A DNA stretch of 43,603 bases from Herbidospora cretacea. GTDB lineage: Bacteria; Actinomycetota; Actinomycetes; Streptosporangiales; Streptosporangiaceae. A program made the translations under genes and the position numbers. The DNA lies in NCBI RefSeq assembly GCF_001570605.1, contig NZ_BBXG01000032.1, positions 1-43,603 on the forward strand, read 5' to 3'. The notes beneath the pieces are model-generated. The model had not been told where the DNA came from. It made no database searches and worked only from the letters and a program-made list of their open reading frames with translations. This document shows, one piece after another, positions 15,860 through 36,050 of the stretch. Every line of letters starts with the position of its first letter. Within the stretch, counting starts at the first letter, position 1.

Positions 15860-16537
15860 ATGCCCCCCAAGACGGCCAGACCAGCTCGCCCTCTGCCCGC
15901 CCGGGAGACGCCTCGCCCGGCACGCTCGCGATACGCGGCCGGGCTGGTCGTCGCCATCCTGGTCGCCGGCTCCCTGGGATATCTGTTCGGGTCCCCGGAC
16001 GCCACCGAGACCTCGGTCGCCGAGATGCGGGCGGCGGAGATGAGACGCGACGCACAGCAGATCGTCGAGCTGACGGCCGGCGCGCGTACCACGGCCACCG
16101 ATCTGACCAAGGTCATGGCGGCCCTGGGCGAGGCGCTTCCGCCCGGCGGCGCGCTCGCCGCCCGGACCCCCACCGACGCGGAGCTCGGCGAGTGGCAGCG
16201 CGTCATGAAGCAGGCGGTGGACCGTCACTCCGTCACGCCGTCCGGCACGACCTCGACCAACGTGGCCCGCGCCGGTTTCCGCAGCGCCGTGGACGCCATG
16301 GCGGTCGCGGTCGACGGTTACGCGTACTGCCGGAAGGTGCCCACCGACGTGCGGCAGGGATGCCTGGACGTCGCCCGCCGGCAGCGGACGGTCGGCCTGA
16401 TGACCTGGTCGGTCGCGGCCACCCAACTCGACCAGATCAACGTCGACGCCGGCCACGGTCACCAGCACGTCTACCTGACGAGCGCGCCCGGCGGGGGAGC
16501 CATGACGGCCGACGGCGTGCCCGAGGGCACGAACTAG
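15860..16537 (+). CDS. Membrane-anchored protein with His-rich C-terminal segment, unknown function
   Basis: 225 residues from the ATG at 15860 (a GTG at 15842 is possible). Basic Pro-rich N-terminus, one helix at about residues 25-45, then an extracytoplasmic region that begins with a coiled-coil-like helix (SVAEMRAAEMRRDAQQIVELTAG). Two cysteines (YAYCRKV and RQGCLDV) sit close enough for a disulfide. Near the end is GHGHQHVYL, a short His cluster that could bind metal. The stop TAG shares its bases with the stop of the convergent importer ATPase gene (CTAG). I do not recognise a family; the position between a zinc exporter and the metallophore-like cluster makes a metal-linked role possible but unproven. 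Confidence 0.7.
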   Translation: MPPKTARPARPLPARETPRPARSRYAAGLVVAILVAGSLGYLFGSPDATETSVAEMRAAEMRRDAQQIVELTAGARTTATDLTKVMAALGEALPPGGALAARTPTDAELGEWQRVMKQAVDRHSVTPSGTTSTNVARAGFRSAVDAMAVAVDGYAYCRKVPTDVRQGCLDVARRQRTVGLMTWSVAATQLDQINVDAGHGHQHVYLTSAPGGGAMTADGVPEGTN

Positions 16538-17292
16538 CCGGCCAGGGGCAGGTTGATCCTGGGCAGCCCGTCGGGGCCGTGGGTCACCTCCGCCTCCACG
16601 CCGTACACCTCGGCGAGCAGTTCGGCCGTGACCACCTTCGCGGGCGGGCCGTCGGCGACCAGACGGCCACCGCTCAGCACCGCCAGCCGGTCGCAGGCCG
16701 CCCCGGCGAGCTGGAGGTCGTGCAGCGCGGCGACGACGGTGACGCCCAGGGAGCGCACCAGCCGCAGCAGTCCCACCTGGTGACGCAGGTCCAGGTGGTT
16801 GGTGGGTTCGTCGAGCAGCAGCAGGCCGGGCTGCTGGACCAGCGCCCTGGCCAGGTGGACCCGCTGCCGTTCGCCGCCGGACAACCGCGCGTACGGCCGG
16901 TGGGCCAGCGTGCGCACCTCGCAGCGCTCCATCGCGTCTTCGATCAGGTCGTGCTCGGCGGCGGTGAGCCGCCCCAGACCGCCCAGGTACGGCACCCGTC
17001 CCAGGGCGACGATCTGCTCGACGCTGTTCTCCAGGTCGGCCGGTGAGTCCTGGGTGACGACGGCCACCCGGCGGGCGACCTCACCGGCCCCGGCGGCCCA
17101 GACGTTCAGGCCGTCGACCAGGATCCGCCCCCGGTCGGGGCGCTGACGCCGGTAGACGCACCGCAGCAGGCTCGACTTGCCGCTGCCGTTGGGCCCGATC
17201 AGGCCGAGGATCTCTCCCGGCGTCACCGACAGCGTGATGTCGTGGAGCACGGGCTCCCAGGCGACGTCCTCGATCTCCAGGGACAGGCTCAC
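16534..17292 (-). CDS. Siderophore/cobalamin-type ABC importer, ATPase (FecE/BtuD-like)
   Basis: 252 residues with Walker A GPNGSGKSS (about residue 35), Q loop VTQDSPADLENSV, signature LSGGERQRVHLARAL, Walker B LLLLDEPTNHLD and the switch His in AALHDLQLA. The Walker B region with NHLD is typical of the FecE/FhuC/BtuD group that powers uptake of metal chelates. The GTG at 17292 overlaps the permease stop codon. Last gene of the long minus-strand operon that begins at 29930. Together with the next two genes it forms a complete uptake system, which in this operon is expected to bring back the modified peptide, free or metal-bound. Confidence 0.93.
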   Translation of the reverse strand: MSLSLEIEDVAWEPVLHDITLSVTPGEILGLIGPNGSGKSSLLRCVYRRQRPDRGRILVDGLNVWAAGAGEVARRVAVVTQDSPADLENSVEQIVALGRVPYLGGLGRLTAAEHDLIEDAMERCEVRTLAHRPYARLSGGERQRVHLARALVQQPGLLLLDEPTNHLDLRHQVGLLRLVRSLGVTVVAALHDLQLAGAACDRLAVLSGGRLVADGPPAKVVTAELLAEVYGVEAEVTHGPDGLPRINLPLAG

Positions 17293-18335
17293 GACAGCGC
17301 CCTCCGGTTGGCGCGGGCGAGCAGGACCAGGAAGAACGGCGCGCCCAGCATCGCGGTGATGACCCCGATGGGGATCTCGTCGGGCTGGTTGAGCAGGCGT
17401 GCCCCGACGTCCACCCACACCAGCAGCAGCGCTCCGGCCACGGCGCTGAGCGGGACCACCCACCGGTTGTCGCCGCCGACCACCATCCGCACGGCGTGCG
17501 GCACCATCAGCGCCACGAAACCGATGCCGCCGCTGACCGACACCACCGCGCCGACCGTGATCGCCGAGCCGATGACGAGCCGCACCCGCAGCCGGTTCAC
17601 CTCCACACCCAGGCTCGTGGCGCCCTCCTCCCCCAGGACGAGGGCGTTGAGCCCGGCCGACCGCAGCCAGAACCACACCACGAAGATCGCGACCACGGTC
17701 GCCGGCACGGGCAGGTCGCCCCACTGCGTCCCGGACAGGCCGCCGAGGCTCCAGAACAGCGCGGACCTCAGCTGGGAGTCGGGTGAGTTGAGGACGATGA
17801 AGTTGGTCGCCGCCTCCGCCAGCGCGGCCACGGCGACACCGGACAGGATCAGCCGGGTGACACCCAATTGGCCGCCGTCGCGCGCCAGCAGCAGCACCAC
17901 GGTGAAGGTGAGCATGGCGCCGGTGAAGGCGGCCAGCGGGAGCAGCCACGACAGGCCGGACATCAGCGCCAGGACCGCGCCCAGCGACGCCCCCGAACTG
18001 GCTCCGATCAGATAGGGGTCGGCCAAGGGGTTGCGCAGCACCCCTTGGAGCACCGCGCCGGTGACGGCCAGGCCCGCGCCGACGATCGCGCCGAGCAGGA
18101 CCCGGGGCAGCCGGATGTCGCGCACGATCACGGCGAGCGGTCCGGCGGGGGCGTCCCGCGTGCCGAGGACGATCCGCCACACGTCCGCGAACGGGATGTC
18201 GACCGGCCCGAGCCCGACGGCCGCGACCAGCGACAGCCCGAGCAGCATGGCCAGCAGCGCCACCGCGCCCGCCAACGTCACCCGGCGGCCCGGCCGGCCT
18301 GACGAGACCCGCCGGGCGGCGACCCGGACCGTCAA
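17289..18335 (-). CDS. Siderophore/cobalamin-type ABC importer, permease (FecCD family)
   Basis: 348 residues from a TTG that overlaps the lipoprotein gene stop (TTGA). About ten membrane helices. Family marks: DVWRIVLGTR...RLPRVLLGAIVGAGLAVTGAVLQGVLRNPLADPYLIGASSGASLGAVLAL, the near-invariant FecCD block, and GGIGFVALMVPHAVRMVVG, GALLLVWVDVGARLL and EIPIGVITAMLGAPFFLVLLAR towards the C-terminus. A GTG about 50 bases downstream is a weaker alternative start. A single permease gene implies a homodimer, as in BtuC. Substrate is expected to be a metal complex or related small molecule. Confidence 0.95.
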   Translation of the reverse strand: MTVRVAARRVSSGRPGRRVTLAGAVALLAMLLGLSLVAAVGLGPVDIPFADVWRIVLGTRDAPAGPLAVIVRDIRLPRVLLGAIVGAGLAVTGAVLQGVLRNPLADPYLIGASSGASLGAVLALMSGLSWLLPLAAFTGAMLTFTVVLLLARDGGQLGVTRLILSGVAVAALAEAATNFIVLNSPDSQLRSALFWSLGGLSGTQWGDLPVPATVVAIFVVWFWLRSAGLNALVLGEEGATSLGVEVNRLRVRLVIGSAITVGAVVSVSGGIGFVALMVPHAVRMVVGGDNRWVVPLSAVAGALLLVWVDVGARLLNQPDEIPIGVITAMLGAPFFLVLLARANRRALS

Positions 18336-19276
18336 CGGGCGAAGCCCTCGGCCAGCGCCCTGAGCGCGCGTCCGCTGCGGAGGCCGGGCTGCAGGTCGTT
18401 GACGGGGATGACGACGAAGCGGTTCTCCTTGACCGCGGTGACGTCCTTGATCGGGGCGTGGGAGCGCATCCAGGCGATCGCCTCGTCGGCCGGTTCGAAG
18501 GCCTGGTCCTCGACCACGATCACCTGCGGGTCGCGCTTGACCAGTTCCTCCCAGGAGACCTGCCCGAACTCCTTGGTCTCGGGGAAGATGTTCTCCCCGC
18601 CGGCCCGGCGGAACAGGTCGAACGCCAGCGTGTTCGCGCCGCTGGTCAGCGGCTTGTCCTTGCCGCCGGCGTAGTCGAAGACCCGCAGGGCGGGAGCGGC
18701 CGGGGTGACGGCGTCCACCTCGGTCCTGAGCGCGGCGACGAGCTGCTCGGCCCTGTCCTGGACGCCGAAGACCCGGCCCAGGGCGCGCAGGTCCTCGTAG
18801 GTCTGCTCGACGGTGGCGGTCGCGCCGGGGCAGCTCGCCGACAGCAGGTGGCTGTTGACGCCCTCCTTCCGAAGGACGGCGCGGTCGCCCAGGGCCTTGG
18901 GTCCGTAGTCGTCGGGGTAGCCGCTGACCACCAGGTCGGGGGCGGCGGAGTAGACGACCTCCTTGGACGGGGGCGGGAAGGCCGATTCGGAGATCACTTC
19001 GACGCCGGTCAGGTCGGCGGCGTACTCCCGCATGATGTCGCCGGCGGCGACGGTGCCGGCCAGCCGGTCCTTCAGGCCCAGGGCCAGGACGACCTCGGTC
19101 GCGACCGTGCTGGAGGTGACGATGCGCTGCGGGGCGGTGTCGTAGGTGTAGACGGCGCCGCAGTTGGTCACCTGGATCGCGGCGGGAGCGGAGGCGGTGG
19201 GAGCCGCTGCCGGGGTGGGGGTCGCGCAGCCGGTCAGCAGGGCGAGCGTGGCCAGCGCCGATATCGGTCTCTTCAT
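18332..19276 (-). CDS. Siderophore-type ABC importer, substrate-binding lipoprotein (FecB/BtuF-like)
   Basis: 314 residues. The signal peptide MKRPISALATLALLTGC ends in a lipobox (LLTGC), so the mature protein is anchored through the lipidated Cys. The PF01497-type fold is indicated by PQRIVTSSTVATEVVLALGLKDRLAG at the start of the first lobe, PDLVVSGYPDDYG, the long connecting helix (YEDLRALGRVFGVQDRAEQLVAALRTEVD) and DPQVIVVEDQAFE. The ATG at 19276 overlaps the TfuA stop (ATGA), so it is translationally coupled to the biosynthetic genes. This coupling suggests that the ligand is the product of the cluster. Confidence 0.93.
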   Translation of the reverse strand: MKRPISALATLALLTGCATPTPAAAPTASAPAAIQVTNCGAVYTYDTAPQRIVTSSTVATEVVLALGLKDRLAGTVAAGDIMREYAADLTGVEVISESAFPPPSKEVVYSAAPDLVVSGYPDDYGPKALGDRAVLRKEGVNSHLLSASCPGATATVEQTYEDLRALGRVFGVQDRAEQLVAALRTEVDAVTPAAPALRVFDYAGGKDKPLTSGANTLAFDLFRRAGGENIFPETKEFGQVSWEELVKRDPQVIVVEDQAFEPADEAIAWMRSHAPIKDVTAVKENRFVVIPVNDLQPGLRSGRALRALAEGFAR

Positions 19277-20316
19277 GGTTTCTCCTTGGGGGCGACGCGT
19301 GCGGCGTACTCGCCGCGGACGCGCAGGGTGTCGAGGATCGCGGCGGGGACGTCGCCGGCGACTTCGGTCGTGGCGGCCACCAGGCAGGCCTGGTCGGCGG
19401 CGAAGGCCGCGAGGTCCGCCGGGCCGAGGTCGGCCAGTTCGGCGGCCGGGACGCGCTCGGCCACCAGAGCGATCCACTCCGCCAGGGCGGCGCCGTGCGG
19501 GCGGGCACCGGTGGCCGCGGCCACCAGGCGGAGTGTGGCCGCGCGTTCCAGCTCGTCGTAGCGGCCCTCGGCGCGAAGGTCGTCCAGGATGCTCCGGGTG
19601 ACGGCGGGCGCGAGCGCGGTGCGGCCGACCGGCCGCACCGCGCGCCACTGGGAGGTCTGCTCGAAGTGCCAGGCGCGCTCGGCGGGCCGGATCTCGTCCC
19701 GGGCCAGCAGGTCCAGCAGCGCGAGGGCGTCGGCGCGTTTGACGTCGCGCCGCCCGGTCGGCAGCCAGTCCCGCAGGCGGCCCGCCGCCAGGTCGGGCCA
19801 TCGCCGGTCGGGATAGTGCAGGTTCTTCGCCGTGGAGATCAGGTCGGCCGCCTCGGCGGCCGTGATCACCTCTTCCTGCACGGCATCGCGCAGCGTGGCC
19901 CTGATGGTGACCATCGCCTCGTTGACCGGCCGGTAGCCCTGTTCGGCGTCGAGGTGGGCGACCGCGACCTCGTCGTCGTCGGTGAGTTCGCCGGTGACGA
20001 TCGCCCGGTAGACCTCGCCGACGCCGGTCATGCCGTAGGGGGCGAGTTCGGCGGCGCGCAGGGCGCCCATGCTGGCGGCCCCGGCGACGGCGACGCCCTC
20101 GGACATCGCCCAGAGGATCTCCTTGTGCCAGACGGCGGGGACGCGCTCGTACACCCCGTCGACGACGGCGATCACGCGGGGGCGTCCGGCGGCGACCAGC
20201 GCGGCCACATCGCCCTGCCCGGCGGGCGGCAGCACCAGGACGTCGCGGCCCGGCAGGCGGTCCCGCACGAGGTCGGCCGGGATGGTCGGACCGGCGAAGA
20301 CGGCGATCTCAGGCAT
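19273..20316 (-). CDS. tfuA: TfuA-like protein, partner of a YcaO enzyme
   Basis: 347 residues. The N-terminal 170 residues are textbook TfuA: VFAGPTIP, VIAVVDGVYERVPAVWHKEILWAMSEGVAVAGAASMGALRAAELAPYGMTGVGEVY and LTDDDEVAVAHL. The C-terminal 170 residues are a helical extension. TfuA proteins accompany YcaO enzymes; in methyl-coenzyme M reductase maturation and in thioamide-containing RiPPs the pair installs backbone thioamides, TfuA being thought to help deliver sulfur. Here it overlaps the start-proximal YcaO gene by 8 bases, so the two form a pair. Thioamidation is therefore the expected reaction but has to be shown. Confidence 0.93.
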   Translation of the reverse strand: MPEIAVFAGPTIPADLVRDRLPGRDVLVLPPAGQGDVAALVAAGRPRVIAVVDGVYERVPAVWHKEILWAMSEGVAVAGAASMGALRAAELAPYGMTGVGEVYRAIVTGELTDDDEVAVAHLDAEQGYRPVNEAMVTIRATLRDAVQEEVITAAEAADLISTAKNLHYPDRRWPDLAAGRLRDWLPTGRRDVKRADALALLDLLARDEIRPAERAWHFEQTSQWRAVRPVGRTALAPAVTRSILDDLRAEGRYDELERAATLRLVAAATGARPHGAALAEWIALVAERVPAAELADLGPADLAAFAADQACLVAATTEVAGDVPAAILDTLRVRGEYAARVAPKEKP

Positions 20317-21559
20317 CGGCGGTCTCCGGTCCGAGCGCCAGCGCCCTGGGTCCCGGCAGGGTGGGCTCGCCGGTCAGCGCTCCCGCCCCCTCCAGCCCGG
20401 GAACCAGCACCTTGACCACGGGGACGCCCAGGGACGCCCGGGTCAGCTCGACCGCGATCACCTGGTCGAGCCCCGCTCCGGCGAGCCGGTCGAGCAGCCA
20501 GTCGAGGTCGTCGCCGAGCAGCTCGTGGTCGGCGCCCGCCGCCTCGAAGGGGCGGGCGTACGGCAGGCTCTCGCGGAGCGCGTCGCGCAGTTCCCCGATG
20601 CCGTCGAGGTCGGTGGTCTCCGCGTAGCGTTCACGGGTGATGTCGTCGCGGGCTCCGGAGACGGTGATCAGCCGGGACTGCGCCGCCTCGGTCAGGGCCC
20701 GCTGGACCGCTATGGCCGGATGGGGGTGGCAGCCGAGCCCCGTGGCGGCGGGCAGAGGGCGGAACGGGTCGGGTTCGGCCTCCACGATGTGGCACAGCAC
20801 GGCCGGGACGCCCAGGTCGGAGGTGATGTCGAACAGCGCCGCCTCGACACCCGCCCGGTCGTAGCGTTCCAGCAGCCGCGCCGTCTCCGGATCGGTCAGG
20901 GTGGACGGGTCGATCCGTGCCTCGGCCTGGGTCAGGCCGTCGCGGAGGTCCCAGAGAGCCGCCGCGTCCCGTTCGATCAGCTCGCACAGCGCGTGGACCA
21001 GCGCCTCCAGCGCGCTGTTGCCCCCGGCCAGGCCGTTGCTGTCGCGGGACAGGCCGTGCCCGGTCAGCGCGGGCGGCAGCGTGAAGTCCAGGCTGACCGC
21101 CTCGTACGGCACCGCTCTCGGCTCGCCCGTACGCACGTCGACACCGTCGATCCACAGCAGAGGCGTGACCTCGTCGAGCACCCCGTCGGCGGTGCGCGGC
21201 AGCCGACGGGGGTCGAGTGCCGCCGCGCCCAGTTCGGCGGGCCGGGCCAGCCGTAACGGACGGTCGATCACTTCGGCGTGCGCGTGCTCGACGGCTTCCA
21301 TGGCCGCCGACACCCGGCTCGCCTCCCGGCTGACGCCCTTGCCCTGGCTGACCGACAGGCTGCGGGCGTTGGGCCGGTAGGCGGTGGCGACCGGGATGCC
21401 GATGAGGTCCAGGCCGGTGACGTCGCAGACCCGCGTCACCCCGCAGGCGGCCAGCGCCGGGCCGAGCCGCCGCCAGGTCTCCTCCAGGGTGGCGGCGCGG
21501 TGTGTGCCCGTCGTGGCCAGTTTCCGGCCGGGACGGTCGAGGTTCCACGGTTCAGACAT
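20309..21559 (-). CDS. YcaO enzyme of the TfuA-associated type (probable thioamide synthetase)
   Basis: 416 residues. ATP/Mg ligands of YcaO proteins are recognisable as SAAMEAVEHAHAE at about residue 84, ALCELIERDAAALWDL at about 190 and RALTEAAQSRLITVSGARDD at about 289. The C-terminus (ALALGPETADA) lacks the Pro-rich tail of azoline-forming YcaOs. This and the adjacent tfuA gene point to the thioamide branch, in which the enzyme phosphorylates a backbone amide and exchanges oxygen for sulfur. The stop overlaps the tfuA start by 8 bases and the start overlaps the preceding ycaO by 8 bases. The peptide at 26249 is the only candidate substrate in the cluster. Confidence 0.93.
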   Translation of the reverse strand: MSEPWNLDRPGRKLATTGTHRAATLEETWRRLGPALAACGVTRVCDVTGLDLIGIPVATAYRPNARSLSVSQGKGVSREASRVSAAMEAVEHAHAEVIDRPLRLARPAELGAAALDPRRLPRTADGVLDEVTPLLWIDGVDVRTGEPRAVPYEAVSLDFTLPPALTGHGLSRDSNGLAGGNSALEALVHALCELIERDAAALWDLRDGLTQAEARIDPSTLTDPETARLLERYDRAGVEAALFDITSDLGVPAVLCHIVEAEPDPFRPLPAATGLGCHPHPAIAVQRALTEAAQSRLITVSGARDDITRERYAETTDLDGIGELRDALRESLPYARPFEAAGADHELLGDDLDWLLDRLAGAGLDQVIAVELTRASLGVPVVKVLVPGLEGAGALTGEPTLPGPRALALGPETADA

Positions 21560-22724
21560 GGGGCACCGGCAGCGTCTCGACGGGGCTGGGCAGCGGGTCG
21601 GCTCCCGCGCCCAGGAAGGGATAGGCGGCGGGACCGGTGGAGCGCAGTCCGGGCACCACGACCCGCGCCACGTGGAGTCCCAGGGCGGCCAGGTCGGGGG
21701 TGGTGAGATCGACTGTGATCACTTCGAGGTCGAGGGACGGCCTTCCGGGCGGCGCGCCCCCGTCGAAGCGGTCCCGGACGGCCGTGGCGACGCGTTCGTC
21801 GGCGAGGAGCTGCACGGTGCAGAGCAGGTCGGTGGCGTCGCTCAGGTCGGGGGCGTAGGAGTCGAGGTAGCGGCGGTCGCTCCGGTGCGGCATCAGCGGG
21901 CCGGCCGGTCGTTCCCATTCCGGCACCCCGTCGATGACCTCGGCGAGGGCGTCCAGCGAACGCAGCGCCTCGGCGGCGGCCGACCGGGCCGACCCGGCCG
22001 CGCAGCCGACACCGATCAGCCCGTCCGGGGACGACGCGACGCACAGCACCACCGGCGCGCCCAGCGCGTTCGGCACGGACCGCCACACGAGTTCGGCCCC
22101 CGCCGGAACCGGCAGCGGCGGCCCCTCCACCAGCGGGAACGCGGCTCCGCCGTACCAGGCGGTGGCCAGGGCGTGCCGTTCCACCACCTCGGCGAGTGCC
22201 GAGGCCCTGGCCGCCTCCGGGGTGGGCCCGGCCGCGATGCCGGCGGCGATCGGCAGGTGCGCCGGGCGGGCCCGGACCAGCGTGTGCGCACCGGAGGACA
22301 GCCAGACCAGCGAGGCGGGCACCCACACCTGACGCCCGTCATCGGAGCGACCGGCCACCCAGGCGAGCACGTCGTCGCGGCGCAGGCCCGCGAACGGGAA
22401 GCCGGGCCGGTCGTGCTGGGCCGGCGAGTAGAGGGCCAGCCGGTCGGGGTCGACGGCGTCGTCGAGGTCGTGCCAGGTCGCGTGCCTGAGTCTCGCCTCC
22501 GGGACCAGGTGGCCGGCGTAGCGCTCCACGGCCTCACCCAGCGCTCTGCGCCGGGCGCGGCCGGGGTCGCCGAACGACGCGCCGCCGACGAGAGGGTTGC
22601 CGAGGGGGTGGGCGAACCGGCCGGTGGCGGCCAGTTCGGCGGTCACGGTGTGGAGCACGGCGTGGCTGCGCCGGGTCTCCACGCGGGTGATCAAACCGGT
22701 GCGGGGGTCGAGCGATGCGTCCAT
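21552..22724 (-). CDS. YcaO cyclodehydratase, azoline-forming type (second of three)
   Basis: 390 residues beginning MDASLDPRTGLITRVE, an opening shared with TOMM D-proteins. YcaO ligand motifs: RRRALGEAVERYAGHLVPE at about 73, ARASALAEVVERHALATAW at about 175 and ARSAAAEALRSLDALAEV at about 255. It ends LPVPHV, a P-x-P tail like the C-terminal proline motif needed by azoline-forming YcaOs. The enzyme class uses ATP to cyclise Ser, Thr or Cys onto the preceding carbonyl. The frame can be read open to 23765 but the extra part is antisense to nothing known and out of frame with the next gene, so the ATG at 22724 is used. It shares layout with the next YcaO, probably a duplication. Confidence 0.92.
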   Translation of the reverse strand: MDASLDPRTGLITRVETRRSHAVLHTVTAELAATGRFAHPLGNPLVGGASFGDPGRARRRALGEAVERYAGHLVPEARLRHATWHDLDDAVDPDRLALYSPAQHDRPGFPFAGLRRDDVLAWVAGRSDDGRQVWVPASLVWLSSGAHTLVRARPAHLPIAAGIAAGPTPEAARASALAEVVERHALATAWYGGAAFPLVEGPPLPVPAGAELVWRSVPNALGAPVVLCVASSPDGLIGVGCAAGSARSAAAEALRSLDALAEVIDGVPEWERPAGPLMPHRSDRRYLDSYAPDLSDATDLLCTVQLLADERVATAVRDRFDGGAPPGRPSLDLEVITVDLTTPDLAALGLHVARVVVPGLRSTGPAAYPFLGAGADPLPSPVETLPVPHV

Positions 22725-22732
22725 CGGATCTC

Positions 22733-24112: not shown

Positions 24113-25440
24113 CGACGGCTCCCCGGGACCAGCAGGTCGACGCCGGAGATCGTCACCGTGACCGGCGTTCCCGGCGCGGTGTGGCGGGGGTGCCGTCCGA
24201 CGGTGAGCTCCAGGTGCAGGGTGTGACCCGGCGGGAGATCGACCGCGACGGGCGCGCAGCGGATCTCCGCCACCCCGCGTCCGGAGGTGATCGGCGTCGT
24301 GCCGTCGCTCAGTCGCGTTCGGACGCCCTCGGGGGTCTCGTGGACGAGAGTGGCGACCAGCTCGGCGGGCCGGTCGGCCTCGGCGCGGCAGCGCACCCGC
24401 GCCACCCCGTGCCACTCGGCCCGGCCCGTCGCGGTGAGACGCACGACGTCGGTGCGCGGCCCGATGACCGACAGGTCGGCCGAGTGCGGCAGCGACGGGT
24501 GAGGATCGGCCGGATCATGGGCGATGACCAGGTCGGGCCGCTCGGGAGTCAGCGCCAGCGACCGCCGCGCCGGACGCGCCGGAGGGCGCGGGTCCACCGG
24601 CTCCCAACGGCTGGTTCCCAGCACGAGGCAGCCGTGCCGCCACTCCTCCGCGGCCGCGGCGGGATCGGTGGCGAGCGTGGCGAGCCAGGAGAGCGCCAGT
24701 TCGGTGGGGTCGGGCTCGGCCGGGACGTCGATCGCGCATTCGGGCTGGAGCCGGTGTGTCAGCGGGGAAGCCCAGCCGCCCATCACCACGGTCGCCCGCC
24801 GGGCCAGGCTCGCCTGGCGCAGCGTCGTGGCGGCCGAGCCGCAGTACCAGCTGCCCAGGTGCAGGGTCGGGACGTCCACGGCGCGGATCCGTGCGCCGGT
24901 TCTCCGGGCCTGCGGTTTCCAACTGCTCGGCGTGGGCGGCCAGGTTCCCAGGGGCACCGGCCAGGCCTTCTGGGTCAGCGCGAGGTCGTAGAGCCCGGGG
25001 CGGAGCTGGCGTCCGCCGCCGATCTCGGTACGCCACCACAGTTCCTCGTCGACTGCCACGGTGGCCGGCGGCCAGGGCTGGCGGCTGGCCACTCCCCTCA
25101 CCGACGGGTGGGCCACGGCGCACCAGGCGGCGTAGGCCTCGTAGGAGGTGCCGTACAGGAACGTGGCGCCGTCGGACCACGGCTGGGCGGTGATCCAGTC
25201 GAGCGTGGCGTGACCGTCGGCCCGCTCGTCGGCGCCGGGTTCGAACTCGCCTGGGGAGCGGTGGCGTCCGCGCAGGTCCTGGAGGACCACGGCCAGGCCC
25301 GCGCCGGTCAGCGCGTCGGCCTCGGGCCACAGCCCCGGCGTTCCGTAGGGGGTGCGGACCACGACGGTGGGGGCCGGGACGCGTTCCGGCAGGAAGACGT
25401 CGGCCACGAGCCCGCCGACCGGGACGTCGATCATGATCAC
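24109..25440 (-). CDS. CocE/NonD (peptidase S15-like) alpha/beta hydrolase with altered catalytic Asp
   Basis: 443 residues from the GTG at 25440, which overlaps the preceding stop (GTGA) and has GGAG five bases before it; an ATG at 25434 is the alternative. The fold is clear: VVVRTPYGTPGLW, LQDLRGRHRSPGEFEP, the nucleophile motif GTSYEAYAAW with Ser, a lid region, and a C-terminal jelly-roll (VARVRCRAEADRPAELVATLVHE...HLELTVGRHPRH). Where CocE-type enzymes have GWYD, supplying the catalytic Asp, this protein reads LHLGSWYCGSA, so Asp is Cys. A His follows in GGWASPLTHR. It may still hydrolyse through Ser/His, act on leader peptide or imported product, or be non-catalytic. Family is sure, activity is not. 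Confidence 0.88.
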   Translation of the reverse strand: MIMIDVPVGGLVADVFLPERVPAPTVVVRTPYGTPGLWPEADALTGAGLAVVLQDLRGRHRSPGEFEPGADERADGHATLDWITAQPWSDGATFLYGTSYEAYAAWCAVAHPSVRGVASRQPWPPATVAVDEELWWRTEIGGGRQLRPGLYDLALTQKAWPVPLGTWPPTPSSWKPQARRTGARIRAVDVPTLHLGSWYCGSAATTLRQASLARRATVVMGGWASPLTHRLQPECAIDVPAEPDPTELALSWLATLATDPAAAAEEWRHGCLVLGTSRWEPVDPRPPARPARRSLALTPERPDLVIAHDPADPHPSLPHSADLSVIGPRTDVVRLTATGRAEWHGVARVRCRAEADRPAELVATLVHETPEGVRTRLSDGTTPITSGRGVAEIRCAPVAVDLPPGHTLHLELTVGRHPRHTAPGTPVTVTISGVDLLVPGSRR

Positions 25441-26165
25441 GGCTGCTCCACCATCAGCCCGCCGGGCACCGGCAGCACGAGATGCCGGTTCAGCAGCCCG
25501 GTCGCGGGGTCGAAGCCCGCCTGGACGCCCGTTCCCGGAGCCTCCCGGTCGTGGAGGTAGGCCCAGACGTCCGCGACGATCAGCGCGGCGGCGACGTGCG
25601 CCCCCACGGCCGGCGACGGGCCGGCTTCCGGAGCGCCGCCGGAGTCGAGCCACGCCCAGTGGGCGGCCAGTTCGTCCGGCCACGGCGAGGCGGCCAGCCT
25701 CCTCGACCGCAGGTCCTCGTAGGAGGCGGTCGCGGGGCCCGTCCAGAAAGGGCCGGTGTACCAGCGCCGCCCTTCGGCGAACCCGAGGTGCAGCGCGGCG
25801 CCGGTGTCCCGGGCCTCGGCGTCGAGCCGCCGGAACAGCTCGTCGCGCAGCCACGAGGAGACCGCGATGCGCACCGCGACGTCCTGGTCGCCGGTGGTCA
25901 GACCTGCTCCTTCGAGCAGGAGGCCGACCGCCTCGAACAGCGGCCCGTCACCGGTCAGGGCGACCCGGCCCGGTCTGCGGACCGGGATCGGCTCCAGCAC
26001 GCCCTCTTCCGTGAAGACCTCCGTCAGGTCGGGGTCGTCGAGCGGCGGACGATCCGGGCGGGCGCCCTCGGGCGCGGACACGGCGAGGAAGTCCTCTCCG
26101 GGGGTGTGCACCAGCCAGCCGTCGTCCCTCGGGACGAACGACACCCCGCCGGCGTACCGGCTCAT
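25437..26165 (-). CDS. E1-like (ThiF-type) YcaO partner with putative leader-recognition domain
   Basis: 242 residues. The middle (VALTGDGPLFEAVGLLLEGAGLTTG...VRIAVSSW) looks like a reduced Rossmann-type ThiF fold. The segment LHLGFAEGRRWYTGPFWTGPATASYEDLRSRRLAASPW corresponds to the GP...PG-t-Cy-Cl--R block of TOMM ocin-ThiF proteins, though its Cys residues are replaced. The first 80 residues (GGVSFVPRDDGWLVHTPGEDFLAV) could form the winged-helix leader-binding element. Such C-proteins bring the precursor leader to the YcaO and stimulate cyclodehydration. It has its own strong ribosome binding site (AGGAAGGAG) and lies just past a hairpin that follows the peptide gene. Confidence 0.75.
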   Translation of the reverse strand: MSRYAGGVSFVPRDDGWLVHTPGEDFLAVSAPEGARPDRPPLDDPDLTEVFTEEGVLEPIPVRRPGRVALTGDGPLFEAVGLLLEGAGLTTGDQDVAVRIAVSSWLRDELFRRLDAEARDTGAALHLGFAEGRRWYTGPFWTGPATASYEDLRSRRLAASPWPDELAAHWAWLDSGGAPEAGPSPAVGAHVAAALIVADVWAYLHDREAPGTGVQAGFDPATGLLNRHLVLPVPGGLMVEQP

Positions 26166-26199
26166 GGGCTCTCCTTCCTGCTCTACGCTGCGAGGACCG

Positions 26200-26234
26200 C
26201 GGGCGGGGACGCGATAGGAGCACGTCCCCGCCCG
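26200..26234 (-). terminator. Strong hairpin between peptide gene and biosynthetic genes (attenuator or stabiliser)
   Basis: CGGGCGGGGACG and CGTCCCCGCCCG are perfect complements: 12 bp, 9 or more G-C, with an 11-base loop. On the minus transcript it lies 14 bases after the peptide stop codon and 34 bases before the next start. There is no T tract. It is the only sizeable gap in the operon. Such hairpins after RiPP precursor genes usually let the precursor RNA accumulate above the enzyme RNA. Confidence 0.8.
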
Positions 26235-26248
26235 TGGCTCAGGACCGG

Positions 26249-26344
26249 CTAGCGCCAGGCCACGCTGGACCGGGTCACGGTCGAGTGGTTGTTGGAGTGC
26301 ACGCTCGCGCGGACCTGCGCGACCTTCAGCTTCGTCACCTTCAT
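26249..26344 (-). CDS. Candidate RiPP precursor peptide, 31 residues, Ser/Thr/His-rich
   Basis: Read from the minus strand: a leader-like start MKVTKLKVAQVRA, then a core-like half SVHSNNHSTVTRSSVAWR before TAG. It has seven Ser/Thr in the last 18 residues, two His, two Asn, no Cys, one Trp. The start ATG shares its A with the stop of the preceding transporter gene (TGATG) and is preceded by GGGAGGTGAT six bases upstream, a near-ideal ribosome binding site, so heavy translation is expected. It lies in the centre of a YcaO/TfuA/E1-like gene set that otherwise has no substrate. Ser and Thr are substrates for cyclodehydration to oxazolines, and any backbone amide for thioamidation. Leader and core boundary is a guess. 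Too short for routine gene finders. Confidence 0.8.
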   Translation of the reverse strand: MKVTKLKVAQVRASVHSNNHSTVTRSSVAWR

Positions 26345-28191
26345 CACGAATCACCTCCCTGCGTCGTCGTCGGGACGGGCCGCCCGGCCAGGAGCGCGGC
26401 GGCGTCCGCCTGCGCCTGGACGAGACGTCGGTAGGGCTCGCATCGCGCCATGAGTTCGGCGTGGCCGCCGATGCCGGCGATGCGGCCGTGGTCCAGCACG
26501 GCGACCAGATCGGCGTGCCGGAGAGTGGAGAGCCGGTGGGCGATGACCAGCGTGGTGCGCCCGTTCCTGACCCGGTCGAGCGCGGTCTGCATCTCGTGTT
26601 CCGACAGGGCGTCGAGCTGGCTGGAGGACTCGTCCAGGACCAGCACCGGGCAGTCGCGCAGCAGGGCTCTGGCGACGGCGACCCGCTGACGTTCGCCGCC
26701 CGACAGGGCGGCTCCCCGCTCGCCGACCACGGTGTCGAGGCCGTCGGGCAGCCTGTCCAGGAACGGGGTGACCTGGGCGTCGTCACAGGCGCGGGCGATC
26801 CGCTCGGCGGTCGCCTCGGGATCGGCCAGCTCCAGGTTGGCGCGCAGGGTGTCGTGGAAGAGGAAGGCCTCCTGCGGCACGTGGCAGACCAGCCGGGGCA
26901 GGTCGTCGACCGGCAGGTCCCGCACGTCGGTCCCGCCGATCCGGACGGCGCCGGACGCCGGGTCGAAGTGGCGCAGCAGCAGGTGGGCCAGGGTCGACTT
27001 GCCCGCGCCGGTGGCCCCGGCCAGGGCGAGGGTGGTCCCGGCGGGAACGGTCAGCGAGACGCCGTGCAGCACCGGACGCCTCTCGTCGTAGCCGAAGACG
27101 ATCCGGTCGAACTCCACCGCCGGAGCCCCGGTCGGGGCGGGGGACGCGGCGGAGCCGGTGTCGGCGACGGCGGCCGGTTCCTCCAGGAGGTCGAAGACCC
27201 GATCGGCGGAGGAGGAGGTGATCCCCCACACCCGCGTGACGTTGAGCAGCATGGCGAGGGGGGTGAAGGCGGCGCCCGCGAGCGCCACCGAGGCGAGCAG
27301 GGCGGGCGTGCTGAGCCCGTTGTCCAGCCCAGTGTCCAGCCCAGTGTCCAGCCCGATGACCAGGACGCTGAGGGTCGCGCCGCCGACCGCGATCCCGCCG
27401 GTGACGGTCTCCATCCCGGCGCGGAGGGTCTGCCGGCGCTGCGCCGAGGCCAGGCGGCGGTCGGCCTCCCGCAGCCGGTCGAGACGGTCGGGGCCGCGGC
27501 CGAACGAGATGACCTCCCGCAGGCCCTGCACCAGGTCGGTGACCTCGACGTTCATCTCGGAGAGCGCGCGGTTGAGGTCGCCGCCGTGACGCGTCCCCGC
27601 CCGGCGCAGAGCCAGCGGCAGCGCGAGCGAGGCCGTCAGCCAGAGGGCCAGCGCGAGGGCGGCCCAGCCGCCGCCGATCAGGGCCATCGCCACGACCGCC
27701 GCCGGGGTGACCACGACCGCAGCCGCGATGTAGATCGAGGTGTGCGCGTAGAAGATCTCCAGGCTCTCGCTGTCGCGCAGCGCCCGGACCACGAGGTCGC
27801 CGCCGCGCCTGCGGACCAGCCCGCCGGGGGCGATCCGGGCGAAGGCCAGGTAGAGCCACTGGCGCACCTGGGCGAGGATGCGGAAGGACAGCTCGTGGGA
27901 GATCCACGACTCGACCCAGTTGGCCACCGCCCGCAGGGCCGTGAGCCCGAGGGCCCACCAGAACACGGGCCACAGGTCCGCGGCTCCGGAGAGCGCCCGG
28001 CCGACGGCGGCGGCGGCGAGCACGACCGCCGCCATCCCGGCCGCCTGGTTGACGACCGCGAACAGGACCGAGATCCCGAACGGGCGTAGGTGCCCGGCCA
28101 GCACGTGGAGCAGTCCCTTCGTGCCCCCGCCCCGCATCGACGCGGGCCGGCCGTCCTCCCAGGCCGCCACGGCTTCGGACGCGGACGTCAT
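26344..28191 (-). CDS. ABC half-transporter, membrane and ATPase domains fused (ABCB-like, first of pair)
   Basis: 615 residues. Six membrane helices in residues 30-330, then the nucleotide-binding domain: Walker A LAGATGAGKSTLAHLLL, Q loop CHVPQEAFLFHDTL, signature ALSGGERQRVAVARAL, Walker B VLVLDESSSQLDALSE and switch VIAHRLSTL. In a predicted loop between helices 5 and 6 is GLDTGLDTGLDNGLS, a short in-frame repeat. It overlaps the other half-transporter by 4 bases, so they should make a heterodimer. Members of this fold export peptides, but IrtAB and YbtPQ of the same fold import metal-siderophores, so direction is open. The start ATG at 28191 overlaps the preceding stop. Confidence 0.93.
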   Translation of the reverse strand: MTSASEAVAAWEDGRPASMRGGGTKGLLHVLAGHLRPFGISVLFAVVNQAAGMAAVVLAAAAVGRALSGAADLWPVFWWALGLTALRAVANWVESWISHELSFRILAQVRQWLYLAFARIAPGGLVRRRGGDLVVRALRDSESLEIFYAHTSIYIAAAVVVTPAAVVAMALIGGGWAALALALWLTASLALPLALRRAGTRHGGDLNRALSEMNVEVTDLVQGLREVISFGRGPDRLDRLREADRRLASAQRRQTLRAGMETVTGGIAVGGATLSVLVIGLDTGLDTGLDNGLSTPALLASVALAGAAFTPLAMLLNVTRVWGITSSSADRVFDLLEEPAAVADTGSAASPAPTGAPAVEFDRIVFGYDERRPVLHGVSLTVPAGTTLALAGATGAGKSTLAHLLLRHFDPASGAVRIGGTDVRDLPVDDLPRLVCHVPQEAFLFHDTLRANLELADPEATAERIARACDDAQVTPFLDRLPDGLDTVVGERGAALSGGERQRVAVARALLRDCPVLVLDESSSQLDALSEHEMQTALDRVRNGRTTLVIAHRLSTLRHADLVAVLDHGRIAGIGGHAELMARCEPYRRLVQAQADAAALLAGRPVPTTTQGGDS

Positions 28192-29930
28192 CGCGCACCT
28201 CCGTGCTGGGCCGCCACCAGGTCCGACCAGGCTCCCGCGTGGGCGGCCAGGTCGGCGGGGCTGCCGTGCTCCACCAGTTCGCCGCCGTCGAAAACGGCCA
28301 CCGCGTCGGCGCTGACGAGGCTCGACAGGCGATGGGCGATCATGATCGTGGTGCGGCCGGCGCGCAGTTCGTCGAGCGCCTCGCGCAGGGCCGCCTCGGT
28401 CTCGCCGTCGACCGCCGAGGTGGCCTCGTCGAGGATGAGCACCGGCGCGTCCTTCAGCAGGGCCCGCGCGATGGCGATCCGCTGCCGTTCGCCGCCTGAC
28501 AGCCGGGCTCCGCGTTCGCCGACGACCGTGTCGAAGCCGTCCGGCAGGCCGTCGACGACATCGAGGATCCTGGCGCGGCGGGCGGCGTGCCGGAGGGAGG
28601 CGAGGTCGGCGTCCGGCCGCGCCAGGCGCAGGTTCTCCGCGATCGTGCCGTGGAAGAGGTGGGTGTCCTGGCTCACCACGGCGGTCATGGCCCGGACCGC
28701 GTCGCGGTCGAGGTCGCGCAGGTCGACGCCGTCGGCGAGGATCTGCCCGGTCTGCGGGTCGAAGTGACGCTGGAGCAGGTTGACCAGGGTCGACTTGCCC
28801 GATCCGGAGCGTCCGGAGATCGCGAGCGTCGTCCCGGGTTCGACGACCAGGCAGACGTCGCGCAGCGCGGGCCGGGCCGCGCCGGGGTAGGTGAAGGTGA
28901 CCTCGCGCAGGACCAGCCGGGGTGGCCGGTCAGCCGTTCGGCTCGTCACAGGCGCGGCCGGCGCCGGGGCGGGCGCGTCGGCGTCCAGCAGGGCGAAGAC
29001 GCCCTTGCCTGCGGCCAGGCCGTGGAACCCCTCGTGCCAGTAGTTCTGCAGTTCGAGCAGCGGGCGGAAGGCCTCGGCGGTCAGCCAGGCGATCAGCAGC
29101 AGACCGGCCGCGTCGAGGTGGCCGGTGGAGTGGCGGATGGCGGCCACCACCACCGACAGGCTGGTGCCCGCCGTCATGAGGAACGCGCTGATCACGTAGA
29201 CGGAACTGGAGGCGGCGAGGTCGCCCATGGTCGCCCGGTAGAGCGCGAGGGCGTCGCGCCGGAGCCGGTGGCCGTAGACGCCGGTCGCGCCCAGCGCCTT
29301 CAAAGTGGTCATGCCCTGGAGGGCGTCGAGCACCCGGGCGGCGAAGTTCTCGTACGCGGTCCAGTGCCGCTGGGACCGCGCGCCCATGATCCGCCGCCAG
29401 AACGGCCGGGACGCCGGCACCAGCACCACGCAGACCCCAGCGAGCACCCCTGCCACCGGGTCCTGCCAGGTCAGCACGGCGACGATCACCAGTGGACCGC
29501 CGACGCTCACGACGACCTGCGGCAGGTAGAAGCCCACGTAGGCCCTGACCGCCTCCACGCCGTCGGCGATCGTGGTCCGCAGCGTCCCGGCCGATCCGGT
29601 GACGGTGTAACCAGGCCCGAGGTCGAGCAGCCGCTCTGCCAGCCGGATCCGCAGGCGGGCCTGGACGAGCGACGCCGTCCAGTTCGCCGACTGATCCCGG
29701 GCCCATAACAGCAGGCAGCGCAGGACGACGAACAGCCCCGTCACCGCCAGCGGCCCACCCACGCCGGCCGGATCCGGCGCGCCGGAGATGAGGGCGCGCC
29801 GGATCGTCTCGACGAGCGCGACCGCCTGCCCCGCCCCCGCCGCCGTGGCCAGGAGCGAGAGCAGGGCGGTCGACGCCATGGGACCCGAGGCGCCACGTGC
29901 CAGACCCAGCATTCGCCGCTGAACGAGCAC
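28188..29930 (-). CDS. ABC half-transporter, membrane and ATPase domains fused (ABCB-like, second of pair)
   Basis: 580 residues from a GTG preceded by AAGGAGGTG five bases upstream, a very good ribosome binding site. First gene of the operon. N-terminal LARGASGPMASTALLSLLATAAGAGQAVALVETIRRAL recalls the opening of IrtB, YbtP and CydD-type half-transporters. NBD: LAISGRSGSGKSTLVNLLQ, VVSQDTHLFHGTIAENLRLARP, RLSGGERQRIAIARALL, VLILDEATSAVDGETE, MIAHRLSSL, all intact. Together with the next gene it would form a heterodimer. Its promoter region contains two Zur-like boxes, so expression of the complete 13.4-kb operon is expected under zinc shortage. Confidence 0.93.
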   Translation of the reverse strand: MLVQRRMLGLARGASGPMASTALLSLLATAAGAGQAVALVETIRRALISGAPDPAGVGGPLAVTGLFVVLRCLLLWARDQSANWTASLVQARLRIRLAERLLDLGPGYTVTGSAGTLRTTIADGVEAVRAYVGFYLPQVVVSVGGPLVIVAVLTWQDPVAGVLAGVCVVLVPASRPFWRRIMGARSQRHWTAYENFAARVLDALQGMTTLKALGATGVYGHRLRRDALALYRATMGDLAASSSVYVISAFLMTAGTSLSVVVAAIRHSTGHLDAAGLLLIAWLTAEAFRPLLELQNYWHEGFHGLAAGKGVFALLDADAPAPAPAAPVTSRTADRPPRLVLREVTFTYPGAARPALRDVCLVVEPGTTLAISGRSGSGKSTLVNLLQRHFDPQTGQILADGVDLRDLDRDAVRAMTAVVSQDTHLFHGTIAENLRLARPDADLASLRHAARRARILDVVDGLPDGFDTVVGERGARLSGGERQRIAIARALLKDAPVLILDEATSAVDGETEAALREALDELRAGRTTIMIAHRLSSLVSADAVAVFDGGELVEHGSPADLAAHAGAWSDLVAAQHGGAR

Positions 29931-29974
29931 GTCGCACCTCCTTCCGAACGGGTGAGCCGGGAGAGACGCTAGGC

Positions 29975-29993
29975 GATAATGATTTTCATTGTC
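29975..29993. promoter_or_regulatory. Zur-like box 1 (cluster promoter, operon side)
   Basis: GATAATGA, TTT, TCATTGTC is an 8-3-8 inverted repeat with one mismatch. It includes AATGATTTTCATT, close to actinobacterial Zur boxes (TGAAAATGATTTTCA type). It lies 44 bases upstream of the exporter start at 29930, in an AT-rich island of a GC-rich genome. Confidence 0.75.
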
Positions 29994-30007
29994 AACAGAT
30001 CTTTGGG

Positions 30008-30024
30008 GATGGTTTTCATTTCCA
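30008..30024. promoter_or_regulatory. Zur-like box 2 (cluster promoter, MFS side)
   Basis: GATGGTTTTCATTTCCA shares the ATGrTTTTCATT core with box 1 and box 3, and has TGG/CCA ends. The TTTTCATT cores of boxes 1 and 2 are exactly 30 bp apart, so the two dimers would lie on one face of the helix. It lies 20 bases before the MFS start. Confidence 0.7.
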
Positions 30025-30044
30025 ATGGACGGTACGTTCCTCGC

Positions 30045-31298
30045 GTGACCGACATCAAGGAGCAGAGCGCCACCGGATTGGGGTCGTTACTGGCCGGCAA
30101 CCAGGACTTCCGGCTGCTGTGGCTGGGCAACCTGGTCAGCGTCTGCGGCGGCTGGTTCACCGCCGTCGCGGTCTTCGCGATGCTCTACGAGCACACCGGC
30201 GCCGCCGTGGCGGCGGGCGCTTCCCTGGCCATGCGCTACCTGCCCGGCGTCCTGTTCGGAACCTGGGGCGGGGTGCTGGCCGACCGGCTCGACCGCCGCA
30301 CGATCATGCTGGTCGGCGACGGCGTGCTCGCGGTGCTGGCGCTGGCGTTCCTGCTGGCCGACAGCCCCGGCACGATCTGGCTGGCCTACCCGCTCACCTT
30401 CGCCTCGGCCGCCGTCGGCTTCGTCTTCCAGGCCGCGCGCAACGCCTGGATGCCCTCCCTGGTCCGGCCGGAGGAGGGCGTCCTGTACGCGGCGGCGGTC
30501 CAGGTCAACGGCCTGCTGTTCCAGGCGGTCGGCGGCCTGGCCGGGGCCGCCGCCGTCACGCTGGTCGGTTGGCGCTGGGCCTTCGTGGTCAACGCGGTGT
30601 CGTTCCTGGTCTCGTTCCACTTCACCGCCAAGGTCCGGCGCGGTGACCGGCGCGGCGACACCCGACCCGAAGCGGCGCGCGGCTTCCGGGCCTTCCGCGA
30701 GGGCCTGCGCGCGGTCCGGCGCAGCCGGCTCGTCTCGGCCCTGCTCATCCTGGAGGCCGTGTTCTGCCTGGGCCTGGGCGGGTCGATCACGGCCATGACG
30801 GCGCTGGCAGTGCAGGTCCACGACCTGGGCGACGGCGGCACCGGCTGGTTCTACGCGGTGCAGGGCCTGGCCGGGGCGGTCGTGCTGCTCATCGCCGCGC
30901 CCCGGCTGAAGAGGCTCCCCGAGGAGAGGCGGCTGGTCGTGCTCGGGCTGTCCTGTCTCGGGGAAGGGCTGTTCACCGCCGCACTGGGCCTGCCGTCCGG
31001 CGCGCTGTGGGCGCTCGCGCTCTGGGGAGCCGCCGCCTGCGTGGACGTGGTCTACGGACCCGTGTCGATGGCGATCCTTCTCGGCCACTCCCCCAACGAG
31101 CTGCGCGGCCGGGTGGTGTCGTTGTGGAGCGCGACGGCGACGGCCTCACTGGGCGTCTCGGCCGTCGTCTCCGGAGCCCTCCTCGACACGCTCGGACCGG
31201 CGGCGCTGCTGCCGATCCTCGGCGCCTGCATGGCTCTTCCCGGCGCGGCCTGGCTGGTGGCGTTACGAGCCGGCCTGCTGCTGCCCTCGCGCGCATGA
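30045..31298 (+). CDS. MFS transporter of the EntS/YbtX-like (MFS_3) group
   Basis: 417 residues with about 12 membrane helices. The first helix follows FRLLWLGNLVSVCGGWFTAVAVFAML, the family motif A region appears as GGVLADRLDRRTIMLVGD, and PSLVRPEEGVLYAAAVQVNGLLFQAVGGLAGAA is typical of the EntS/TIGR00900 group that exports enterobactin and related siderophores; YbtX of Yersinia belongs near it and is linked to zinc. The GTG at 30045 is used because the longer frame to 29979 runs through both Zur-like boxes. Likely role: secretion of the peptide product. The 3' end overlaps the convergent regulator gene by 36 bases. Confidence 0.9.
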   Translation: MTDIKEQSATGLGSLLAGNQDFRLLWLGNLVSVCGGWFTAVAVFAMLYEHTGAAVAAGASLAMRYLPGVLFGTWGGVLADRLDRRTIMLVGDGVLAVLALAFLLADSPGTIWLAYPLTFASAAVGFVFQAARNAWMPSLVRPEEGVLYAAAVQVNGLLFQAVGGLAGAAAVTLVGWRWAFVVNAVSFLVSFHFTAKVRRGDRRGDTRPEAARGFRAFREGLRAVRRSRLVSALLILEAVFCLGLGGSITAMTALAVQVHDLGDGGTGWFYAVQGLAGAVVLLIAAPRLKRLPEERRLVVLGLSCLGEGLFTAALGLPSGALWALALWGAAACVDVVYGPVSMAILLGHSPNELRGRVVSLWSATATASLGVSAVVSGALLDTLGPAALLPILGACMALPGAAWLVALRAGLLLPSRA

Positions 31299-31649: not shown

Positions 31650-31673
31650 GGCGGTCACTCCCACGTCTTGACA

Positions 31674-31688
31674 ATGGTTTTCATTTTC
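31674..31688. promoter_or_regulatory. Zur-like box 3 (zur/znuA divergent promoter)
   Basis: ATGGTTTTCATTTTC repeats the core of box 2 base for base over ATGGTTTTCATTT. A TTGACA hexamer at 31668 overlaps it, consistent with a -35 element blocked by a repressor. It lies 24 bases upstream of the zur start. Confidence 0.75.
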
Positions 31689-31715
31689 TACATGGTTGCC
31701 CACGAAAGAACCAGA

Positions 31716-31731
31716 TTGAAATGAAAACCGT
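31716..31731. promoter_or_regulatory. Zur-like box 4 (znuA side, opposite orientation)
   Basis: ATTGAAATGAAAACCG, read on the other strand, contains GGTTTTCATTTC, the same core as boxes 2 and 3. It lies 22 bases before the znuA start at 31754, a position where binding would block transcription or elongation. Confidence 0.7.
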
Positions 31732-31753
31732 TATTGATCTAGGAAGGCCCGGC

Positions 31754-36026: not shown

Positions 36027-36050
36027 ACGCCGCCGCTCCCGAAATTCCGC

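Follow-up and report, generated by a model that had tools for sequence, protein, structure and literature searches.

A ribosomal peptide gene cluster placed next to zinc-uptake genes raises the question of what its product does for the host cell. Such a cluster lies in the soil bacterium Herbidospora cretacea within contig NZ_BBXG01000032.1 (positions 1 to 43,603; the whole stretch of 43,603 nucleotides is hereafter the window), in which a minus-strand operon of 13,397 bp (16534-29930) encodes a short peptide, three YcaO enzymes and transport proteins. Judged from the precursor forms and the ami gene order seen in four of its relatives (L059, L061, L062 and L064), the locus is a member of the published streptamidine-like ('ami') family of ribosomally synthesized and post-translationally modified peptides (RiPPs) (Russell et al. 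2021, PMC8442711; this and the other papers are cited from parts of their text). Within this known family of biosynthetic gene clusters (BGCs), it is by sequence a variant distinguished by a third class of precursor and by a thioamide-type YcaO-TfuA pair; this TfuA-bearing variant and a family-wide operator of the zinc regulator Zur are what is new. The preferred reading, to which a probability of roughly 0.65 is given, is that of a Zur-repressed ami variant whose product is exported, binds zinc and is re-imported, and the narrower claim of a metal-binding product that is taken up again is held with the same confidence. We infer that the metal carried is likely zinc, which would make the product a zincophore.

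The Zur motif of Streptomyces coelicolor, tGaNNatSatNNtCa, was obtained from regions recovered by chromatin immunoprecipitation (PMC5472717). The published consensus TGANNATSATNNTCA was matched 14 times in the window with up to two mismatches, against 1.57 expected, and none of 100 shuffles gave as many. Four window matches had a single mismatch, three of them in two divergent promoters (29974, 29980 and 31669) and one elsewhere (6501). The Zur-like boxes that the sequence-only reading had announced in the operon promoter are indeed present there (29974-29988, 29980-29994 and 30004-30018, spanning 29974-30018) and are conserved in relatives, and further motif matches occupy 31669-31734, between a zur-like gene and znuA. 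A 13-mer drawn from the window boxes themselves, AATGAAAAYSRTT, was found exactly at four places of the 8.28-Mb genome, three in the window and one upstream of a znuA in the vicinity of the other zur gene (contig C6). With one mismatch allowed, there were 11 places against five for the reversed control; gene names at such places being readings of translations, one of the seven one-mismatch places lies in the window promoter, one precedes a CobW-type GTPase gene near an L28-like gene (contig C5) and five show no zinc gene. Iron control was considered and rejected, since no DtxR/IdeR-type box (at least 14 of 19 consensus positions) was found in the window or in 34 related loci, three of which reach 13 of 19.

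These 34 loci came from a search of the order Streptosporangiales with the E1-like protein of the operon, which matched in 30 of 297 genomes, the own genome included; 34 of the 38 places listed were taken with 20-kb surroundings, leaving aside the window, G210:C1, G195:C1 and the second piece of one gene (G033:C45:91721). They comprise 27 non-fused loci (L044 and L052 cut by contig ends) and seven fused ones, in which the E1-like match falls inside a long frame of 667-748 residues that also holds YcaO. A second set was obtained by scanning a collection of named genomes with a YcaO alignment and taking the best 80 of 308 loci, at least a dozen of which are on the same contigs as in the order search. 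A phylum-wide sample held the family in five of 396 genomes at E<=1e-30, again with the own genome included. The named loci carry precursors of a motif-A-like form (..HNSASHSNALVENPF), a motif-B-like form (..GPGTNALVHNPFAW..), the form HPTCNHALVADLF and the window form (HSSNHAT..AWR). Equating these forms with motifs A and B is a step of the present analysis, the available text of PMC8442711 naming no shared element but ALV and giving HLSATH as the core of streptamidine. Several motif-B-like precursors (L154, L141, L142, L146-L150 and others) consist of tandem GPGTNALVHxPF-like units, two in each and four in L154, so that one gene may give several product units.

A 17-mer matrix made from four window boxes reached at least 18 bits in all 27 non-fused loci (lowest 18.0; at least 20 in 24) and in none of the seven fused ones, a test that takes in close relatives and is partly circular. 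In the named loci, at least 20 bits were reached in 42 of 80, against 0.3 expected from dinucleotide shuffles. The published consensus was then scored in the 300 bp before the precursor for 65 of the 80 named loci: at least nine of 11 positions were matched in 47 of the 65, compared with 71/1300 random and 85/650 GC-matched segments, and a perfect box was present in 19, compared with 1/1300 and 2/650. By precursor type, the nine-position level was reached in 29 of 30 motif-A loci, three of four HPTCNH loci and eight of 13 window-type loci, and in neither of two others. All five window-type failures (L137, L139, L156, L157 and L161) have a box before the first gene of the operon instead, and in L092, the one HPTCNH locus that failed, a box with a perfect score is found immediately within the called start, which had been set too far upstream.

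Similarly, matches came from 38 of 295 genomes in g64, a genus assumed to be Streptomyces; 35 of them had a precursor, and three had loci cut by contig ends. At least nine positions were matched in 34 of these 35 loci, at least ten in 33 and all in 20 (controls at nine or more: 2/700 random, 0/350 GC-matched), and the box stands 75-95 bp before amiA in 33 of 35. The 16 loci that encode the exact HLSATH core of streptamidine all have a box of at least ten positions.

Outside the Actinobacteria, the Paenibacillus oralis locus L144 contains genes for a hydrolase, a YcaO, an AmiB-like protein, an ABC (ATP-binding cassette) exporter and FecCD/FecE. The Bacillus-type Zur box occurs at 25 places in this genome against three for the reversed control, with five in the 21-kb locus itself, seven more in a nearby 20-kb stretch and others before cobW and znuCBA. 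The nearby stretch holds Fur-family genes whose products are 28% identical to the own Zur, together with znu and cobW-like genes. The P. campinasensis locus L164 has five boxes at 16 or more of 20 positions. No precursor was found in L144 or L164. As an observation in its own right, L279 (7384000-7403999) and L144 of P. oralis form a zinc island with two Fur-family genes, znu and cobW-like genes and a further set of substrate-binding protein (SBP), FecCD and FecE genes, in which 12 of the 25 boxes fall within about 44 kb.

The sequence-only reading was to be abandoned if relatives consistently lacked zur/znu genes or a Zur box; in fact, Zur-type boxes precede most of the non-fused clusters, and the case for Zur now extends far beyond the window. 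On these sequence data, control of the cluster by Zur is very likely, and a Zur-type switch before most related clusters suggests that a known peptide family serves zinc supply. The term 'Zur' was absent from the main text of the streptamidine paper (PMC8442711) in a term search.

The operon itself agrees with what had been described, a 13.4-kb minus-strand unit with a peptide, three YcaO proteins, a TfuA, an E1-like partner, a hydrolase and an ABC pair; every gene was found in its expected place, and junctions overlap or leave 2-8 bp, apart from an 83-bp gap behind the peptide gene. Transcription would start with the two AmiT-like ABC exporter halves, A (28188-29930, CydD/MsbA-like, the first gene) and B (26344-28191, CydC/MsbA-like), both with ABC_tran and ABC_membrane matches and both on the minus strand, as are all operon genes. 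They are the counterparts of amiT1/amiT2, a pair present only in part of the relatives.

The precursor gene (26249-26344) overlaps the exporter stop with its start codon, has the Shine-Dalgarno sequence GGAGG and encodes 31 residues, MKVTKLKVAQVRASVHSNNHSTVTRSSVAWR, with a core around HSNNH. Conservation in other genomes, which had been proposed as a check, was borne out: relatives gave 15 distinct peptides of the window type, with K5, L6, H16, N19, H20, W30 and R31 common to all, these peptides having been hand-picked for likeness (14 of 31 residues, one of 33 cut to 31). The peptide being so conserved, a chance open reading frame (ORF) was rejected. Neither motif A nor motif B occurs in the window peptide, which has HSNNH..AWR instead; since PMC8442711 lists 22 family peptides with neither motif, this excludes the window from subgroups A and B only. 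The 83-bp gap (26166-26248) holds a hairpin of -45.6 kcal/mol (z -3.48; 0/200 shuffles as stable), both arms of which are kept in seven aligned rows from five distinct, closely related loci. This very stable structure between the precursor and amiB-like genes, an attenuator or processing site, may set the precursor-to-enzyme ratio.

The next gene (25437-26165) encodes the E1-like protein, which had no Pfam match and only a weak NCBIfam one (TIGR03882, E 0.002). Nevertheless, this leader-binding model of thiazole/oxazole-modified microcins was matched at E<=0.001 by 24 of 33 aligned homologues. An AlphaFold model from the 33-row alignment had a mean predicted local distance difference test score (pLDDT) of 93.8, and its best solved folds were LynD, TruD, McbB and MccB (E 2e-10 to 2e-7; query-normalised template-modelling score 0.52-0.67). 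The streptamidine authors predicted by Phyre2 a TruD-like RiPP recognition element (RRE) and an E1-like domain for AmiB (PMC8442711), and the Herbidospora protein, with its LynD-, TruD- and McbB-like predicted fold, shares homology with its AmiB-like counterparts in clusters of motifs A and B. This predicted fold and the homology to a family with a characterised product (streptamidine, PMC8442711) both support the proposal that the cluster makes a RiPP.

Between the amiB-like gene and a YcaO gene sits a CocE/NonD (S15) hydrolase (24109-25440; PF02129 E 6e-22 on the longer ORF; TIGR00976 above cut-off), AmiC-like and probably the leader protease, with homologues in motif A and B clusters. YcaO-3 (22733-24112) is of the AmiD-like cyclodehydratase type (TIGR03604 275 bits, cut-off 219; nearest solved TruD, LynD and MusD), shares 41-43% identity with the YcaO of L062, a cluster in ami order, and has the proline-rich C-terminus of the AmiD type (..VPLPHT), as compared with L062 rather than with AmiD of S. 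albidoflavus. YcaO-2 (21552-22724; PF02624 E 2e-34), also of cyclodehydratase type, scores 152 bits against the same cut-off of 219 and ends in ..LPVPHV. YcaO-1 (20309-21559; PF02624 E 1e-80; nearest solved MJ1094, 6pe3) is of the thioamidation type, with TIGR03266 for McrA-glycine thioamidation as best NCBIfam model (226 bits, below the cut-off of 365), and adjoins TfuA (19273-20316; PF07812 E 3e-46; TfuA 6xp8 E 3e-25), its probable sulphur-delivery partner. NCBIfam scores of this pair stay below curated cut-offs, and the formation of a thioamide by YcaO-1 and TfuA is, from sequence, somewhat favoured. No Pfam match for the flavin dehydrogenase AmiE was found among the operon ORFs, an enzyme that many family members lack (PMC8442711).

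A full siderophore-type uptake system had been claimed for the end of the operon; its three kinds of component are present, corrected to a single permease gene. They are a substrate-binding lipoprotein of siderophore/B12 type (18332-19276; PF01497 E 6e-25; nearest solved periplasmic binding proteins 4mlz and 4n01), a FecCD-type permease (17289-18329; PF01032 E 3e-89, longer ORF) and a FecE-type ATPase (16534-17295; ABC_tran E 9e-32, longer ORF), whose best NCBIfam models are F420-0, corrinoid, heme and FecE ATPases, all below cut-off. These three genes stand against four in the FecBCDE-like importer of PMC8442711.

Among the relatives, the order peptide, E1, hydrolase, YcaO, YcaO and importer with a divergent major facilitator superfamily (MFS) gene recurs; FecCD/FecE genes are present in all 25 non-truncated non-fused loci, and YcaO-1 with TfuA in seven of the 27 (L036-L040, L048 and L058). 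A plasmid origin was rejected: the precursor had no plasmid match better than E 7, and the 36 records for YcaO-3 were all below 60% identity.

Opposite the operon, the EntS/YbtX-like MFS gene was found as proposed (30045-31298, plus strand; PF07690 E 3e-26 for the ORF from 29979; EntS model E 5e-20, below cut-off), with its start moved to a probable GTG at 30045 because the ORF start at 29979 falls within a box. The adjacent Fur-family gene and znuABC were likewise found, the former corrected to 31263-31649 (minus strand; PF01475), its closest solved relative being Mycobacterium tuberculosis Zur/FurB (2o03, E 1e-20), followed by S. coelicolor Zur. On the plus strand follow genes for a ZnuA-like zinc-binding protein (31754-32674; PF01297 E 6e-58), a ZnuC-like ATPase (32671-33444; profile matches) and a ZnuB-like permease (33441-34310; PF00950 E 5e-42 on the longer ORF 33129-34310). 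A permease pair identified by profiles, TIGR03943 (34273-35040) and ArsP_1/SO_0444 (35013-36071), occupies 34273-36071 on the minus strand. The same pair is found within 20 kb of the cluster in eight of the 27 non-fused relatives, and in Paenibacillus it is divergent from cobW with Zur-type boxes between; it is probably part of the zinc response. Moreover, zur, znuABC and a CobW gene lie beside the Frankia cluster L145, and znuABC beside the Arthrobacter cluster L155.

The fused E1-YcaO clusters (L065 of the own genome, C5:343557-363556, and L060, L063, L066-L069, with precursors such as MAHPTFEELAESSVCIRSHTPAVDEAFTWHEDDAE) were rejected as Zur-controlled members, none of the seven having a box at 18 bits. 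A palindrome drawn from their own promoters, TTGCGAANNNTTCGCAA, occurs with up to three mismatches in all seven, at no site in the 27 non-fused loci and at 0.17 sites per shuffled locus. At up to two mismatches, it is found at nine places of the own genome against five for the reversed control, three of them at L065, where two precede the precursor and one stands just before a neighbouring Fur-family gene. At L060, a Fur-family gene also adjoins, with a weak site nearby behind the gene. The closest solved relative of the Fur-family protein beside the fused class is M. tuberculosis Zur, and the palindrome resembles what we take to be the box of the nickel regulator Nur.

A pathway can be outlined from the genes present, the conserved precursor, the fold predicted for the AmiB-like protein and the Zur-type operators kept across the family; its steps of cyclisation, thioamidation, leader removal, export and import are those that the named protein families would predict. 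When zinc falls, Zur would leave the boxes at 29974-30018, and the operon, the MFS gene and znuABC would be expressed together. The AmiB-like protein would bind the 31-residue precursor and hand it to YcaO-3 and YcaO-2, which would cyclise the backbone at the HSNNH core to an azoline or amidine, while YcaO-1 and TfuA would probably add a thioamide. After removal of the leader by the hydrolase, the product would leave through the ABC pair and the MFS protein, bind zinc outside and return as a complex through SBP/FecCD/FecE. Product fragments would be expected around HSNNHSTVTRSSVAWR.

Several results weigh against this zinc-carrier pathway. Of seven metals tested, zinc among them, none was bound by streptamidine, and metal starvation brought out no phenotype in an amiD mutant (PMC8442711), although redundancy with znuABC could mask one. 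The importer has relatives among siderophore systems and equally among those for B12, heme and F420-0, and since B12 and F420-0 systems are among them, its substrate may be something other than a metal complex. Any of nine zinc-linked queries matched beside only 11 of 80 named loci and eight of 27 non-fused Streptosporangiales loci. As for the boxes, 15 of the 80 named loci were dropped because the motif search called no precursor there, 18 of the 65 scored stay below nine positions, motif-B loci pass in only seven of 16 cases, and one of the 47 passes, L123, could be fortuitous, its box being located at the start codon. In addition, the loci are interrelated (L100, L102 and L104, for example, share one precursor), so that the counts cannot be treated as independent observations; more weight falls on the occurrence in many genera and with two kinds of box.

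A wider version of the zinc-carrier reading appears evenly balanced between true and false: the whole non-fused family, from Actinobacteria to Paenibacillus, would serve ribosomal zinc acquisition under Zur, streptamidine having bound no metal because its isolated form was incomplete or degraded. The Herbidospora-Acrocarpospora-Thermocatellispora variant would then add a thioamide ligand, and the fused class would be a sister system, controlled by a second Fur paralogue and serving a different metal.

Among the alternatives, the one that survives best, though unlikely, keeps Zur control and lets the product handle copper, cobalt, nickel or iron, or else a cofactor containing metal that is of use when zinc is scarce, with an importer of the B12/F420-0 kind. 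For the importer parts, the best-scoring models are indeed those for F420-0, corrinoid/BtuC and heme, none of them above cut-off, the solved relatives include B12- and heme-binding proteins, thioamide and azole donors generally favour soft metals, and streptamidine bound no zinc; however, it was negative for cobalt, nickel, copper and iron as well (PMC8442711), and a zinc-type operator recurs in two phyla with two different box grammars. A shade less probable is that zinc-starved cells release the peptide as an antimicrobial or a signal, with the importer for immunity or recycling. Many YcaO RiPPs are antibiotics and the window offers two export systems, whereas streptamidine had no antibacterial or antifungal activity, deletion of the importer genes abolished its production (PMC8442711) and SBP/FecCD/FecE-type genes recur across the family. 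Very improbable is a reading in which the cluster is ordinary secondary metabolism and the boxes are either AT-rich palindromes arisen by chance or sites of a different Fur paralogue: Fur-family operators look alike, the genome has five Fur-family genes and five one-mismatch boxes lie by no recognizable zinc gene, but the shuffled, random and GC-matched controls contradict it, the box is common to znuA and the CobW gene, and the fused class shares YcaO and importer genes and yet has its own, different palindrome.

The zinc-carrier reading bears on a widespread family, spanning over 230 species in 2021, that was published with a product and no function; its authors suspected metal import, for which the tests made gave no support, and left the function open (PMC8442711). 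A conserved Zur operator before the precursor gene would identify severe zinc starvation as the inducing condition so far lacking and would point to a definite, testable function. A zinc-carrying product would be a zincophore made by the ribosome, for which the cluster encodes both exporter and importer.

Compared with known systems, the core of the cluster is that of streptamidine, with precursor, AmiB-like RRE/E1 protein, hydrolase, YcaO, ABC pair and FecBCD-type importer, so that the initial statement that no RiPP of this architecture had been described does not hold for this core; for the TfuA-bearing variant, or for a link of YcaO or streptamidine with Zur, no paper was found, the hits having been judged partly by title or abstract. 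Family peptides start at 31 residues and members with two YcaOs are described (PMC8442711), whereas the window differs from streptamidine in its HSNNH precursor class, two cyclodehydratase-type YcaOs, extra YcaO with TfuA, MFS exporter and lack of AmiE. YcaO-TfuA thioamidated RiPPs (thioviridamide-like compounds, thiovarsolins, thioamidated thiopeptides and StdGH; PMC13174530) share the adjacent pair, and StdGH thioamidates the backbone of Asn, a residue also held by the window core. Unlike the window, these RiPPs have other precursors and partners, and the thioamide of the Herbidospora product is predicted. Ribosomal metallophores of the multinuclear non-heme iron-dependent oxidase (MNIO) type, such as bufferins and thiooxazole metallophores, are likewise metal-binding peptides, but they depend on MNIO enzymes, to which the operon ORFs had no profile match, and are tied to copper or metal stress. 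To our knowledge, none of the Zur-controlled metallophores coelibactin, ethylenediamine-disuccinate and pseudopaline is ribosomal. Unlike in these, metal binding by the Herbidospora product is a prediction; the likeness lies in metallophore biosynthesis placed under the control of Zur (PMC6103462, PMC5472717).

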